Assembly: GCA_030431455.1 (NCBI GenBank)
Contig: JAUIJE010000013.1
Location: forward strand, 62,001 to 126,000
Direction: 5' to 3'
Length of the DNA stretch: 64,000 bases
Source of the DNA: a bacterium
GTDB taxonomy: Bacteria > Myxococcota > UBA727 > JAUIJE01
Within the stretch, counting starts at the first letter, position 1; each line of letters begins with the position of its first letter. The notes under the pieces are model-generated. The model worked only from the letters and a program-made list of their open reading frames with translations, made no database searches and had not been told where the DNA came from. Shown in pieces: positions 24,603 to 61,883 of this stretch. The position numbers and the translations under genes were made by a program.

Positions 24603-25265
24603 CTACGGTTCGGGCCGGATTTGGTTGAGCGCGCCGGAGAGACGTCCCGCTTTCGGGTGGCGGTAGGATGGGTCGACCCACTTCAGCCAGCGGGTCTCGG
24701 CCACGGGCACGTCGCGCTCGAAGATGAGCCCTTCCATGCGCCGGGGGGCGTAGGCCGAACCGCCCGCCGCCGCGCGGGCCGCCGCGCAGGTCATGCGCCC
24801 CGCCGCGCGGGGGGTCACCACCGACAACCCCGCCGCTTCACAATGAGTCTGCAGCGCGGGATAGGGCACAAACCGCCGCGCCCGGGCGTCCCACAGGGCG
24901 AAGGCCACAAACGGGGCGGGCAGGTCGCGGTACCCCACGTGCACCCGGTGCAGCAGCCACTCGCCGAACAGGGTGTTGCCGGGACGGACCGCCGACCGCA
25001 GCCGGTCCGCCTCGAGCCGCGCCCAAATGTCAATGCAATCGAACAGGCGACCGCCCAGGGCCCGGCGCCAGGCGGGCTTCAGCCCTACGTCGAGTTTGCC
25101 GCGGGCCTGGTGGGTGAGACTCACGTTGATGCCGTCGAGCTTTTCGAACACCCAGACCTTGGTGCGAAAAAACCGTTCAACCGTCTCGCGGTCGGCCACG
25201 AGGTCGCCCCGGTCCGCGTGGCTGCCCGGTACGTGCTCGATGCGGGGAAAGGTCGAGACGTTCAC
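24603..25265 (-). CDS. RNA ligase family nucleotidyltransferase
   Basis: This 220-residue protein starts at the GTG at 25265, which overlaps the stop of the kinase fusion (GTGA). It shows the covalent nucleotidyltransferase motifs in order: motif I EKLDGINVS with the AMP-accepting Lys42, motif III-like LFGEWLLH near 99-106, motif IV EGLIFE at 178-183 and motif V WLKWV with Lys195. It is about the size of the catalytic core of Rnl2-type RNA ligases and lacks extra DNA-ligase domains. It should adenylate a 5'-phosphate RNA end and seal a nick. The target is unknown. Coupling to a kinase-like gene suggests end healing followed by sealing. Confidence 0.88.
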   Translation of the reverse strand: MNVSTFPRIEHVPGSHADRGDLVADRETVERFFRTKVWVFEKLDGINVSLTHQARGKLDVGLKPAWRRALGGRLFDCIDIWARLEADRLRSAVRPGNTLFGEWLLHRVHVGYRDLPAPFVAFALWDARARRFVPYPALQTHCEAAGLSVVTPRAAGRMTCAAARAAAGGSAYAPRRMEGLIFERDVPVAETRWLKWVDPSYRHPKAGRLSGALNQIRPEP

Positions 25266-26971
25266 CGTGCGTGGCCCTCGATGAGCTGGCACAAGGCCTC
25301 GATGCAGCGCCGCGCGCTCTTGGTTGTGGTGTCGATGCGCGCGGCGCCCGCCGGGACCACAAACGGGTCGACCGCCCGGGACCGATCGTGGGCGTCCCGC
25401 CGCCGCACCCAACCCCGCACCGTGCGGACCGGGACGTCCCGGCCCAGGCGCTCTTGAATGCGCGCGGCCCGCACCGCCTCGTCGGCGTCCACGTACACCC
25501 GCACCGCCGCGTCGGGGGCGATGACCGTGCCCGCGACCCGGCCCTCGATGATCACCCCGCCCCGCCCCGCCGCGTCGCGGGCCGCGGCCTGGACCCAATC
25601 CCGCACCCCGGGGACCGTGGCCCACGCGGCCACGGTCTTCTCCACCCCGATCAGGTTCAACCGCCCGTCGAGGGGGTCCTCGCCCACCACCGCGATGCCC
25701 TGCGCCAACCGCAACCGGCGCCGGCGCAAGCTCCGCACCAGCCGGGCCACATCGTCGGGCCGGGCCGGGTCCCAATCTTTCTGCAACGCCAAATGGGCCG
25801 CGGCCCGGTACCCGGCCCCGAGGTTGATGTGCCCGAGGCCGAACCGGGCCGCGGCCGCGGTCACCAGCGTCGAGCTGCCCGACCCGGCGGGGCCGTCCAC
25901 CGTGACCACCTCGCCCCGGCGCCGCTTTTTTGTCCCCCCGCGCCCGGGGGCGCGGGGGGCGGGGGCCCACCGGGGCCGCTGGCCCAACACCGCCTCGAGG
26001 TCGTCCTCGACCCGGGCGCGATGAAACTGTGCATACCCGCGCGCCCCCCCCACGCTCGGCGCCCCCGCCTGCACCGCGAGCAACGCCTGCAAACCCGCCA
26101 GGGCCCCGAGCATCGCGGCCAGGCCCCGCCACTGGATCGCGCGGTCGACCACCTTGCGCCCCGGCCCCCGCCCCCCCTGGTAGGCATCGAGAAACACCAC
26201 CTGGTCGACGACCGAGAGCCGCTCCCGGACCAGAAAGAGCGCGAGATCGAGCGCGGGGTCGCCGGCGCCGGCGTGCTCGAAGTCGATGAGCCGGAGCGCC
26301 CCCCGGTGAGCAACCACATTGTGCAGCCGGAGGTCACCGTGACAGAGGCGCGGGGGGGCCTTGACCAATGCTTTTGTGTCATGGTCTTGTTCGAGGTCCC
26401 GCAACACCCGGCCCAACCTTCGCCGCGTGGGGGGCGCCAACGCCGGACCGGTCCAGGCCGCGAGATCGTGCACCCGGCGCCACACCGCCCCCGGGTGCCC
26501 CCCGCTGCGCAAGGGGCCAAGCCGTCCCGGCGACCGGCGGTGCAAAGCCGCGACCAAGCCACCGAGCGCGGCCATCGTCACCGGCCCGGCGGGCGGGCGC
26601 CGGCCGGGCAACGCCTCGAGCACCAAGCTGCCGCCGAGCGCGATGTCGAGCGCGCGCAGGTCGCGGGCCACCGCCCGGGACGGGCGGGACGAGACCTGCT
26701 CCAACCGCGCCGCGAAATCACCCGCGTACAGCACCCGGGGCGCGCCCGCGGGTGTGCCCCGGGCCAACGCGCGGGCCTCGTCGGACACGCCTTCGCGCCG
26801 GTCCACGCGGGCCTTGATCACCACCGGGCCCCGGTCGGTGCGGGCCCGCCACACCAAGTTGGCCCCGCCCACGGTGGGCAACGGGGCGCTCACCCGGGCC
26901 GCCGAGAGCCCGGCCAAACGACAAACAGCGCGCACAAAGGCGCGCTGTTGTGAGGGGGTGGGCAACGCCAC
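25262..26971 (-). CDS. APH-type kinase fused to a cytidylate-kinase-like domain
   Basis: The 569-residue product has a GTG start 6 bases after the stop of the upstream small gene. Residues 30-330 are an aminoglycoside-phosphotransferase fold: VVIKAR with the ATP-site lysine, catalytic HGDLRLHN (211-218) and LIDFEHAG with Asp230. After a basic linker (GGTKKRRRG), residues 354-569 match cytidylate kinase: VTVDGPAGSGSST, NLGAGYRAAA, EGRVAGTVIAPDAAVRVYVDA and RRDAHDRSRAV. The Walker A lysine is replaced by Ser366 (AGC codon), so nucleotide binding may be altered or lost. I know of no standard enzyme with this architecture. It is coupled to the RNA ligase gene. Confidence 0.88.
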   Translation of the reverse strand: MALPTPSQQRAFVRAVCRLAGLSAARVSAPLPTVGGANLVWRARTDRGPVVIKARVDRREGVSDEARALARGTPAGAPRVLYAGDFAARLEQVSSRPSRAVARDLRALDIALGGSLVLEALPGRRPPAGPVTMAALGGLVAALHRRSPGRLGPLRSGGHPGAVWRRVHDLAAWTGPALAPPTRRRLGRVLRDLEQDHDTKALVKAPPRLCHGDLRLHNVVAHRGALRLIDFEHAGAGDPALDLALFLVRERLSVVDQVVFLDAYQGGRGPGRKVVDRAIQWRGLAAMLGALAGLQALLAVQAGAPSVGGARGYAQFHRARVEDDLEAVLGQRPRWAPAPRAPGRGGTKKRRRGEVVTVDGPAGSGSSTLVTAAAARFGLGHINLGAGYRAAAHLALQKDWDPARPDDVARLVRSLRRRRLRLAQGIAVVGEDPLDGRLNLIGVEKTVAAWATVPGVRDWVQAAARDAAGRGGVIIEGRVAGTVIAPDAAVRVYVDADEAVRAARIQERLGRDVPVRTVRGWVRRRDAHDRSRAVDPFVVPAGAARIDTTTKSARRCIEALCQLIEGHAR

Positions 26972-26977
26972 CGCCGA

Positions 26978-27403
26978 TCAGGTCCCGGCGTAGCGGCTGG
27001 TGCGCGGGGTGTACGACCGGCGCGAACGGCCGCCGCCCCCGGAGTACCCCACGCGCGAGCTGCGCGAGCTGCGCACGTCGGCGCGGATCTCGTCGAGGGC
27101 GTCGTCCAGGGTGCCTTTGTCGGTGCCGGTGAGGAACGCCTCGACGATGTCCTGGGCGGAGTTGCCGCGGATGAAGCCCTTGTTGACCGCGAGCTCGAGG
27201 GTGTTGCGGATGGCGTCGGCCGAGCGGGTCAAGCCACGGGTCGAGGACGAGTACTGAAAGTCGTCCTTCAGGTCCTGCACGGTGCTCTTGATGATCTTGT
27301 TGACCTCGGCCTTGCTGACGGTCCCGCCCGACTGGCTCGCGAGGGCGAGCTTGCCCAGCAGGTCTTGGTCGATGACGCTTTTGCCTTTTCCGATGATGTT
27401 CAC
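26978..27403 (-). CDS. Small protein with Arg/Ser/Gly-rich basic tail
   Basis: This 141-residue protein is the first gene of the RNA-ligase operon. The GTG at 27403 is supported by AGGAG seven bases upstream; the open frame continues further up but is unlike coding sequence. Residues 1-112 are helical and charged, with a loop SQSGGTVSKAEV (23-34) that resembles a degenerate EF-hand or dockerin loop. Residues 112-141 are Arg/Ser/Gly/Tyr-rich (RSSRSSRVGYSGGGGRSRR), like disordered RNA-binding tails. No family is recognised. A role in bringing RNA to the kinase and ligase is inference from position and tail. Confidence 0.78.
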   Translation of the reverse strand: MNIIGKGKSVIDQDLLGKLALASQSGGTVSKAEVNKIIKSTVQDLKDDFQYSSSTRGLTRSADAIRNTLELAVNKGFIRGNSAQDIVEAFLTGTDKGTLDDALDEIRADVRSSRSSRVGYSGGGGRSRRSYTPRTSRYAGT

Positions 27404-27563: not shown

Positions 27564-28181
27564 GTGGCCGAAGCCCCCGACCTCGTTGCGCGCTGCCGGG
27601 ACCTCCCCGCCGAGGCCCTGTGCGCGCTGTTCGTGGAGGGGCTGCAGAAAAAACACGACGCCACCTGCGAGGTCGCGGCCCGCGCCCTGCGCGACAAAGC
27701 CCGGGCCGGGGCCCTCGATGACGACACCTGGCCGGTGTTGGTCGCCTGCCTGGTCGACGCCCCCACCCTGCGGTCGGCGCTGCACGTGGCCAAGGCGTTG
27801 GCCGCGTTTGGCCGGCGGGCCGGTCCCGCTGCCCCCTATTTGATCGAGCGCATCCGCGCGGTGCTCGTCACCGACGACGAGTCCTTTTGGGCTTTGGACG
27901 GCATGCTGCACGCGCTGTCCTACGTGGGCGATGGGCGCAACGTGACCTTCACCAACGAGCTCGCGGCCCAGACCCCCTCGGTGGTGATGGTGTCCCGGTC
28001 GGTGTACCGGGGGGCCCTCGGGGACGACGACCGCGAGGCGATGTTCTACGACACGCTGGAGGACGTCGCCGACCGGCTCGAAAGCGATGACCCCGGAACC
28101 TGGCGGACCAAGACCACGCGCTTGGCCGCCGCGGGGGACGACGACGCGGGCGGCGGGCTCAAGCCCTGGATGACGCGCTGA
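27564..28181 (+). CDS. Helical repeat (HEAT-like) protein
   Basis: The 205-residue product has a GTG start. The sequence is almost wholly amphipathic helix, with recurring units such as LFVEGLQKKHDATCEVAARALRDKA and LVDAPTLRSALHVAKALAAFGRRAGPAAPYLIERI, as in HEAT/ARM repeats. It has no signal peptide and no catalytic motif, so it is likely a protein-binding scaffold. It is divergent from the RNA-ligase operon with 160 bases between starts. Its last 23 bases overlap the 3' end of the opposite-strand hydrolase gene. Confidence 0.7.
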   Translation: MAEAPDLVARCRDLPAEALCALFVEGLQKKHDATCEVAARALRDKARAGALDDDTWPVLVACLVDAPTLRSALHVAKALAAFGRRAGPAAPYLIERIRAVLVTDDESFWALDGMLHALSYVGDGRNVTFTNELAAQTPSVVMVSRSVYRGALGDDDREAMFYDTLEDVADRLESDDPGTWRTKTTRLAAAGDDDAGGGLKPWMTR

Positions 28182-61325: not shown

Positions 61326-61883
61326 TCACCGGCCGGCGAAGGTGAGCTCGAGCAGCAACGGCCCGCGCAACCGTTTGTCGTCGAGGACCGGGCCCCGCTC
61401 GCGCAGGCACTTGCCGAGCGCGGTCTGGCTCGCGGCGCCCGCGGGGCGCAACACCACGTGCCCGCGGTGGGTCCGCCCCACCAGGCGCACCGTCTCCCCC
61501 TGGGCCCGGGCGTGTCGTTCACAGACTTGGGCCTCCGCGGTCCAGGCCGTGATCACCTCGTGCATGAGCTTGCCGGGGGCGTGTTTGGGCCAGCGCGCCA
61601 CCACCACCCCCACCGGGCGGCCCCCGGCCTCGGGACGCGACACGTCGTGGGCGTACATCGCCCCCGCCCGGGTCTCGGCCAACAGCGCCTGCATCTTGCG
61701 CCGGGCCTGCTCGATGCCGCCATCCACGAACACCACCCGGGGCGCGGGGGGCTTTGCCTCGACGACGATCTCGTCGTCGAGCGTCATCTGACGCGGGGCC
61801 GGGGGCGCGTCCCGGGCCTCGTCCGCCCACCCCGCCGACGTCCACGCCAGCCACAACCCCAGGGTGATCCCCCGCCACGTCAC
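61326..61883 (-). CDS. Exported protein with possible AgmX/TonB-C-like end
   Basis: The 185-residue product has a GTG start that overlaps the stop of the RCC1 lipoprotein gene. A signal peptide (GITLGLWLAWTSAGWA) is followed by a TonB-box-like DDEIVVEA near 35-42. The C-terminal 70 residues have two Cys about 55 residues apart (QVCERHARAQG ... LGKCLRERG) and beta strands, weakly like the AgmX/PglI C-terminal domain of myxobacteria. It is the third gene of an overlapping trio with a caspase-family gene. The function is unknown. Confidence 0.75.
   Translation of the reverse strand: MTWRGITLGLWLAWTSAGWADEARDAPPAPRQMTLDDEIVVEAKPPAPRVVFVDGGIEQARRKMQALLAETRAGAMYAHDVSRPEAGGRPVGVVVARWPKHAPGKLMHEVITAWTAEAQVCERHARAQGETVRLVGRTHRGHVVLRPAGAASQTALGKCLRERGPVLDDKRLRGPLLLELTFAGR

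Follow-up and report, generated by a model that had tools for sequence, protein, structure and literature searches.

A candidate four-gene RNA repair or modification cassette pairing an APH-fold kinase with an RNA ligase in Myxococcota

Organization of the locus

The window, which means the whole stretch of 64,000 nucleotides analyzed here, lies on contig C21 of a 7.7 Mb genome and harbors a compact locus of four genes (Table 1). Three of them are located on the minus strand and encode a small protein, a fusion of an APH domain with a cytidylate-kinase-like (Cmk-like) domain, and an RNA ligase. Here, a gap of 6 bases separates the small gene from the fusion gene, and the fusion and ligase genes share a GTGA overlap, which likely results in translational coupling. 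An earlier note, made from the sequence alone, had described this arrangement, and the open reading frames were located as it claimed. As a three-gene unit, however, the description was incomplete, since a fourth conserved gene, encoding a HEAT-like protein, had been missed, as had the optional status of the Cmk part. The GTG start of this fourth gene was inferred from its relatives.

Table 1. Features of the locus (positions in the window).
Feature	Position	Strand	Description
Small protein P0003	26978..27403	-	141 aa, GTG start, AGGAG upstream; from translation
APH-Cmk fusion P0002	25262..26971	-	569 aa; Pfam and full-length relatives
APH (protein-kinase-like) domain	26159..26866	-	aa 36-271 of P0002; PF01636 and alignment
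Cytidylate-kinase-like P-loop domain, degenerate	25277..25906	-	aa 356-565 of P0002; PF02224 and alignment
RNA ligase P0001	24603..25265	-	220 aa, nucleotidyltransferase domain only, predicted adenylation Lys42 (EKLDG); PF09414
GTGA start/stop overlap, fusion/ligase	25262..25265	-	GTGA or ATGA kept in 5/5 split modules
HEAT-like protein	27564..28181	+	205 aa, GTG start, divergent from operon; relatives adjoin the module in 5 other genomes

Distribution and conservation of the module

Among 195 genomes of the phylum, the four-gene module was encountered in six: the window genome, G147, G183, G192, G185, and G193. Within these 195 genomes, full-length relatives of the fusion were found in G147 (contig JAEUJP010000693.1, Myxococcaceae bacterium) and G183 (contig JACOUT010000016.1) with 37-38% identity, and profile searches added the modules of G192, G193, and G185. 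An all-against-all comparison of the neighborhoods revealed the small protein, the APH-Cmk protein, the ligase, and the HEAT-like protein as the common adjacent set; one extra match of the repeat type concerned a distant window ORF at 52 kb, outside this set. Biosynthetic genes travelling with the module were not found in this comparison. Since the same genes recur in the same order in distant genomes, fusion and ligase being about 35% identical, the locus is not a chance arrangement of open reading frames.

The HEAT-like gene is divergent from the small protein, kinase, and ligase genes in five genomes and lies downstream of them in G147. A four-base overlap (ATGA or GTGA) connects kinase and ligase genes in all five split modules, and the sixth (G185) encodes one APH-ligase protein. 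Furthermore, the occurrence is sporadic: the module is present in G185 and absent from its genus mates G184 and G186.

A single-sequence scan of 84,980 species yielded no relatives of the ligase, and a scan with an alignment of four ligase sequences matched three only, all known module carriers. Outside Myxococcota, the sampling comprised about 190 genomes and one query. No relatives were found in viral contigs and phages, and P0001, P0002, P0003, P0010, P0014, and P0016 gave no match to the PADLOC defence models. Rfam searches of the window and the five module loci gave no nearby RNA target, the single match being a distant tRNA-Glu. This tRNA-Glu (ctc) is predicted at positions 61737-61824 of the plus strand of the window, inside a predicted minus-strand ORF (61326-61883). 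In the literature searched, no earlier description of the module was found; a prior mention may nevertheless exist.

The RNA ligase

The ligase belongs to the Pfam family RNA_ligase (E 8e-15; 55.8 bits vs. a cut-off of 27). As described in the earlier note, it is a KxDG ligase of 220 residues displaying motifs I (EKLDG), III (FGEW), IV (MEGLIFE), and V (LKWV). The key residues E41, K42, D44, G45, E102, W103, E178, G179, and K195 are invariant in 12 sequences of the family. The protein ends about 25 residues past motif V and therefore lacks a C-terminal domain.

An RNA-ligase-type fold is predicted by the AlphaFold2 model (pLDDT 92.3). The 31 best PDB fold matches of this model are all RNA or tRNA ligases (5d1o, E 2.3e-7), comprising archaeal, Naegleria, T4 Rnl2, trypanosome editing, and fungal tRNA ligases, and DNA ligases rank after them. 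When 38 ligases were arranged in a tree, those of the six modules came out as a single group (100/98). This tree sorts by partner, with five changes vs. a mean of 20.4 after shuffling, some of the partner-type joins involving long branches.

The APH domain as constant partner of the ligase

Both Pfam matches expected for an APH-kinase fold fused to a cytidylate-kinase-like P-loop domain were found. The APH match reaches an E-value of 8.8e-16 (58.8 bits vs. a cut-off of 23.2), and residues E65, HGD211-213, and D230 are invariant in an alignment of seven sequences. The ATP lysine is replaced by Arg in G193, and its alignment is uncertain in G150; in both proteins, His takes the place of the Asn following HGD. 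APH enzymes mostly act on small-molecule substrates, and we know of no APH-fold enzyme that phosphorylates RNA ends.

Every module pairs the ligase with an APH domain, whereas the Cmk-like domain is present in only three of the six modules. G192 and G193 have a free-standing APH gene that lacks the Cmk part and shares four bases with the ligase gene; in G185, APH and ligase are united in a protein of 515 aa (PF01636, 1.3e-16; PF09414, 2.5e-7). Thus, the fusion or its APH part adjoins the ligase in every module found, as the check proposed in the earlier note requires, and linked or fused ligase and kinase genes, by which healing-and-sealing systems are recognized, are present in all six. The proposal that APH and P-loop domain jointly replace the usual kinase has to be narrowed accordingly: the APH part is constant, but half of the modules dispense with the Cmk part, which in the window has a degenerate P-loop.

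Within the fusion, the Cytidylate_kin match is strong (E 3.4e-37). The domain was aligned with those of two other fusions and with the canonical Cmk of the same genome, which is encoded elsewhere (G000:C24). Its P-loop reads GPAGSGSST instead of GxxGxGK(S/T), so that the Walker-A Lys has become Ser366, as the earlier note had implied by calling the P-loop degenerate, and EGRD is changed to EGRV with loss of the substrate-site Asp. The Cmk-like domains of G147 and G183 keep both the Walker-A Lys and EGRD. Against the Cmk equivalog TIGR00017, the window domain scores 107 bits, below the cut-off of 135.55 bits. Because of Ser366 and EGRV, and since a canonical Cmk is present elsewhere in the genome, the Cmk part in the window is probably not a working kinase. 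The domain is probably accessory, and in the window genome a nucleotide- or RNA-binding remnant. A P-loop 5'-OH polynucleotide kinase was not detected either, as the module proteins gave no AAA_33/PNK match above cut-off.

Fusions of APH with a P-loop kinase are known from COG2187-COG0645. This protein resembles the window fusion in that APH is joined to a P-loop kinase-like domain; its P-loop, however, is of another family than Cmk, and to our knowledge it has no link to an RNA ligase.

The small tailed protein and the HEAT-like protein

The small protein P0003 is predicted to contain about five helices (aa 13-116), followed by a low-confidence tail rich in R/S/G/Y, which agrees with the Arg/Ser/Gly tail noticed before. 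Its AlphaFold2 model is poor (pLDDT 63.6), and with it no PDB fold match was obtained (best E 0.84); no Pfam family was found above cut-off. Relatives are present in the five other modules, and all six proteins carry a Ser/Tyr-containing tail. The tail sequences diverge, and the alignment contains no invariant tail residue. A detached Rnl2 C-terminal domain was considered as its identity and is unsupported, the Pfam match having an E-value of only 0.077 and a PDB fold match being absent. Calmodulin-like matches had E-values of 0.2 or worse. In G183, a second small basic protein is encoded upstream of the module (L035:11117-11437); it ends with SPYGA and the small protein of the module with SPYGG.

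For the HEAT-like protein, a weak HEAT_2 match is present in its relatives only. A strict four-way linkage is rejected, because G181 and G182 carry the HEAT-like gene beside recJ- and mutS-like genes, without the other three. HEAT-like relatives next to recJ-/mutS-like genes (L084:4921-5655 and L085:3531-4247) have a C-terminus, GGGLKPWMTR, identical to that of the window protein.

Ligase-APH fusions in reverse order

In genus g71, the genomes G150, G151, and G155 encode fusions in the reverse order, ligase-APH. The G150 protein of 472 aa matches APH with 1.6e-15 and the ligase with 7.7e-13, and those of G151 and G155 share this architecture. A small protein with a tail rich in G/R/S/T precedes each fusion. 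These fusions are located at L071:5577-7572, L087:4266-6170, and L088:4366-6261, and the preceding tail contains repeats such as GGRSTGxTTG.

Against a profile made without g71, the APH parts of these proteins gave E-values of about 1e-15 to 1e-18. They thereby score no better than an unrelated APH protein of G366, which reached 2.7e-18 against a fuller profile. Furthermore, the ligase tree places the g71 fusions weakly (44/16). Because of both results an independent origin of the coupling in g71 is possible: without a clear affiliation of the reverse-order fusions with the module group, ligase and APH may have been coupled on two occasions.

Partners of related ligases

Related ligases are found next to kinases of a different kind. 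An HD-AAA_33 protein adjoins the ligase in G156, on a Pseudomonas plasmid, and on a Sphaerospermopsis plasmid, and HD-PNK-like neighbors are also present in G152 and G151. The kinase part of one tested HD-AAA_33 protein matches the bacterial Pnkp family TIGR04075 with 2.6e-8, which is below the whole-protein cut-off. These HD-Pnk pairs (PF01966-PF13671 beside PF09414) resemble the module in using the same ligase family and an adjacent kinase gene. In contrast, their kinase is of the P-loop polynucleotide type and accompanied by an HD phosphoesterase, whereas the module kinase has the APH fold and no phosphoesterase was detected in the module. The earlier proposal of a non-standard kinase paired with a ligase is therefore partly supported, by kinase and ligase being neighbors or fused in all modules and by the sister ligases adjoining HD-PNK. 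On the Pseudomonas aeruginosa plasmid p4782_002 (L103:4962-6980), two IS21 copies flank the pair of RNA ligase and HD-Pnk, which may therefore be mobile.

A precedent is known from D. radiodurans, where one operon encodes a ligase-like protein together with DRB0098, an HD-PNK protein with kinase activity on 5'-OH ends; the ligase-like DRB0100 takes up AMP, and ligation was not found (PMC1997131).

A second type of partner consists of an SMC-like ATPase and a protein of about 175 aa, followed by the ligase, in eleven genomes of the phylum, on plasmids of Azotobacter and Tistrella, and in two genomes from other phyla. In one example, PADLOC assigned both proteins to HEC-03B and HEC-03A, respectively. 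This HEC-03 candidate defence operon is comparable to the module in that a related PF09414 ligase is part of a compact operon; the partners, however, are the SMC-like ATPase and the HEC-03A protein and not APH. Sets of HEC-03A/B and a PF09414 ligase were observed at L070:6104-8705, L104:3057-5675, L105:3215-5675, L132, and L133, and this three-gene set may combine RNA-damaging defence with RNA repair. Another PF09414 group lies beside a gene for a Ham1-like NTP pyrophosphatase (L072:4191-6058 and L097:3735-5848; match tested in L097).

Proposed function and mechanism

The usual kinase of RNA repair operons is a P-loop polynucleotide kinase, and T4 Pnkp/Rnl1 and Pnkp1-Rnl-Hen1 contain P-loop kinase and phosphatase modules. 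None of these was found in the APH-ligase module. Since it lacks the features of a P-loop polynucleotide kinase and of a 3'-healing domain, it is not a member of the classical repair families; it would rather work like a kinase-ligase RNA repair pair. T4 Pnkp/Rnl1 and bacterial Pnkp1-Rnl-Hen1 (PMC4411300) likewise join a kinase and a KxDG RNA ligase as a unit. A kinase of the protein-kinase superfamily acting on RNA is represented by archaeal ArkI, which phosphorylates the 2'-OH of tRNA U47 and whose gene shares an operon with that of a tRNA enzyme (PMC9095486). Unlike the module kinase, ArkI does not belong to the APH family and has no ligase partner.

The observed genomic coupling, the APH-ligase fusion, the domain assignments, and the conserved catalytic residues of APH and ligase are best explained by a cassette of four genes for RNA repair or modification, the ligase of which cooperates with an APH-fold kinase rather than a P-loop kinase. 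We assign this reading a probability of about 50%. With an APH kinase in the place that a standard RNA-end kinase takes beside related ligases, the cassette points to a not yet described type of system for RNA repair or modification.

Mechanistically, we infer RNA as substrate, and the APH-fold kinase would transfer phosphate from ATP onto an RNA hydroxyl. This could be the 5'-OH of a broken RNA, providing the ligase with its required 5'-phosphate, or a 2'-OH close to the break. The ligase would charge itself with AMP on Lys42, pass the AMP to the 5'-phosphate, and seal the RNA. Binding or presentation of the RNA is the probable role of both accessory proteins, the HEAT-like one and the small one with the R/S/G/Y tail.

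The main gap in this mechanism is 3'-end healing. A 3'-end-healing phosphoesterase (HD, HAD, or CPD) gave no Pfam match in the module proteins, and a distant host gene might provide this activity. Since a 3'-phosphatase, cyclic phosphodiesterase, or HD domain is absent from the module, it could not heal 2',3'-cyclic-phosphate ends on its own. For this reason, the tRNA repair after toxin cleavage suggested in the earlier note is only a possibility. Either an enzyme of the host would process toxin-made ends of this type, or the actual substrate carries ends of another kind. The rarity of the module and the two substitutions in the APH domain of G193 also argue against the proposed function.

Alternative explanations

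The APH domain might instead be a protein kinase acting on the small tailed protein, the HEAT-like protein, or the ligase, thereby controlling a ligase with 5'-phosphate substrates. The protein-kinase-like fold, the Ser/Tyr-containing tail in all six modules, and the fusion and overlap, which would suit a regulator as well, are in line with this. Since the tails diverge without an invariant residue and the sister ligases pair with true polynucleotide kinases, we consider it unlikely.

Quite unlikely is a modification or biosynthetic pathway, in which the nucleotidyltransferase adenylates or caps a small molecule, protein, or RNA 5' end phosphorylated by APH, and the Cmk-like domain handles the nucleotide. 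The minimal ligase without C-terminal domain, the small-molecule kinase families to which APH and Cmk both belong, and the AMP uptake without detected ligation by DRB0100 (PMC1997131) would fit. On the contrary, RNA ligases are well ahead of capping enzymes in the fold matches, the same ligase family adjoins HD-PNK, and the module travels without biosynthetic genes.

The APH family also includes antibiotic kinases, and a weak APH(3') match is present in the fusion. This raises the idea of a resistance cassette, in which APH inactivates an antibiotic or toxin harming ribosomes or tRNA and the ligase repairs the resulting damage. This is very unlikely, since the match to the aminoglycoside resistance family APH(3') (NF033068) reaches 19.6 bits vs. 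a cut-off of 205 bits and an assignment to it is rejected, and since APH-ligase fusions suggest one common substrate rather than two tasks.

Finally, a plain metabolic CMP kinase with an accidental ligase link, to which the strong PF02224 match might point, can be dismissed, since the Walker-A Lys and the substrate-site Asp are lost in the window, the equivalog cut-off is not reached, the genome has its own canonical Cmk, and three modules lack the domain.

Implications

Returning to the RNA repair or modification cassette, a more far-reaching version of it is put forward tentatively. The APH-fold enzyme may be a polynucleotide kinase of a new class or, alternatively, mark breaks by phosphorylating 2'-OH groups of RNA. 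Dedicated to the ligase, it would form, with the R/S/G-tailed presenter and the HEAT-like protein, a repair route independent of P-loop polynucleotide kinases. Due to the small fusions of G185 and G150, this idea is testable with one purified protein. If true, a second kinase fold would be present in RNA repair and the large APH family would gain an RNA substrate, so that part of this family would be RNA enzymes rather than resistance genes.
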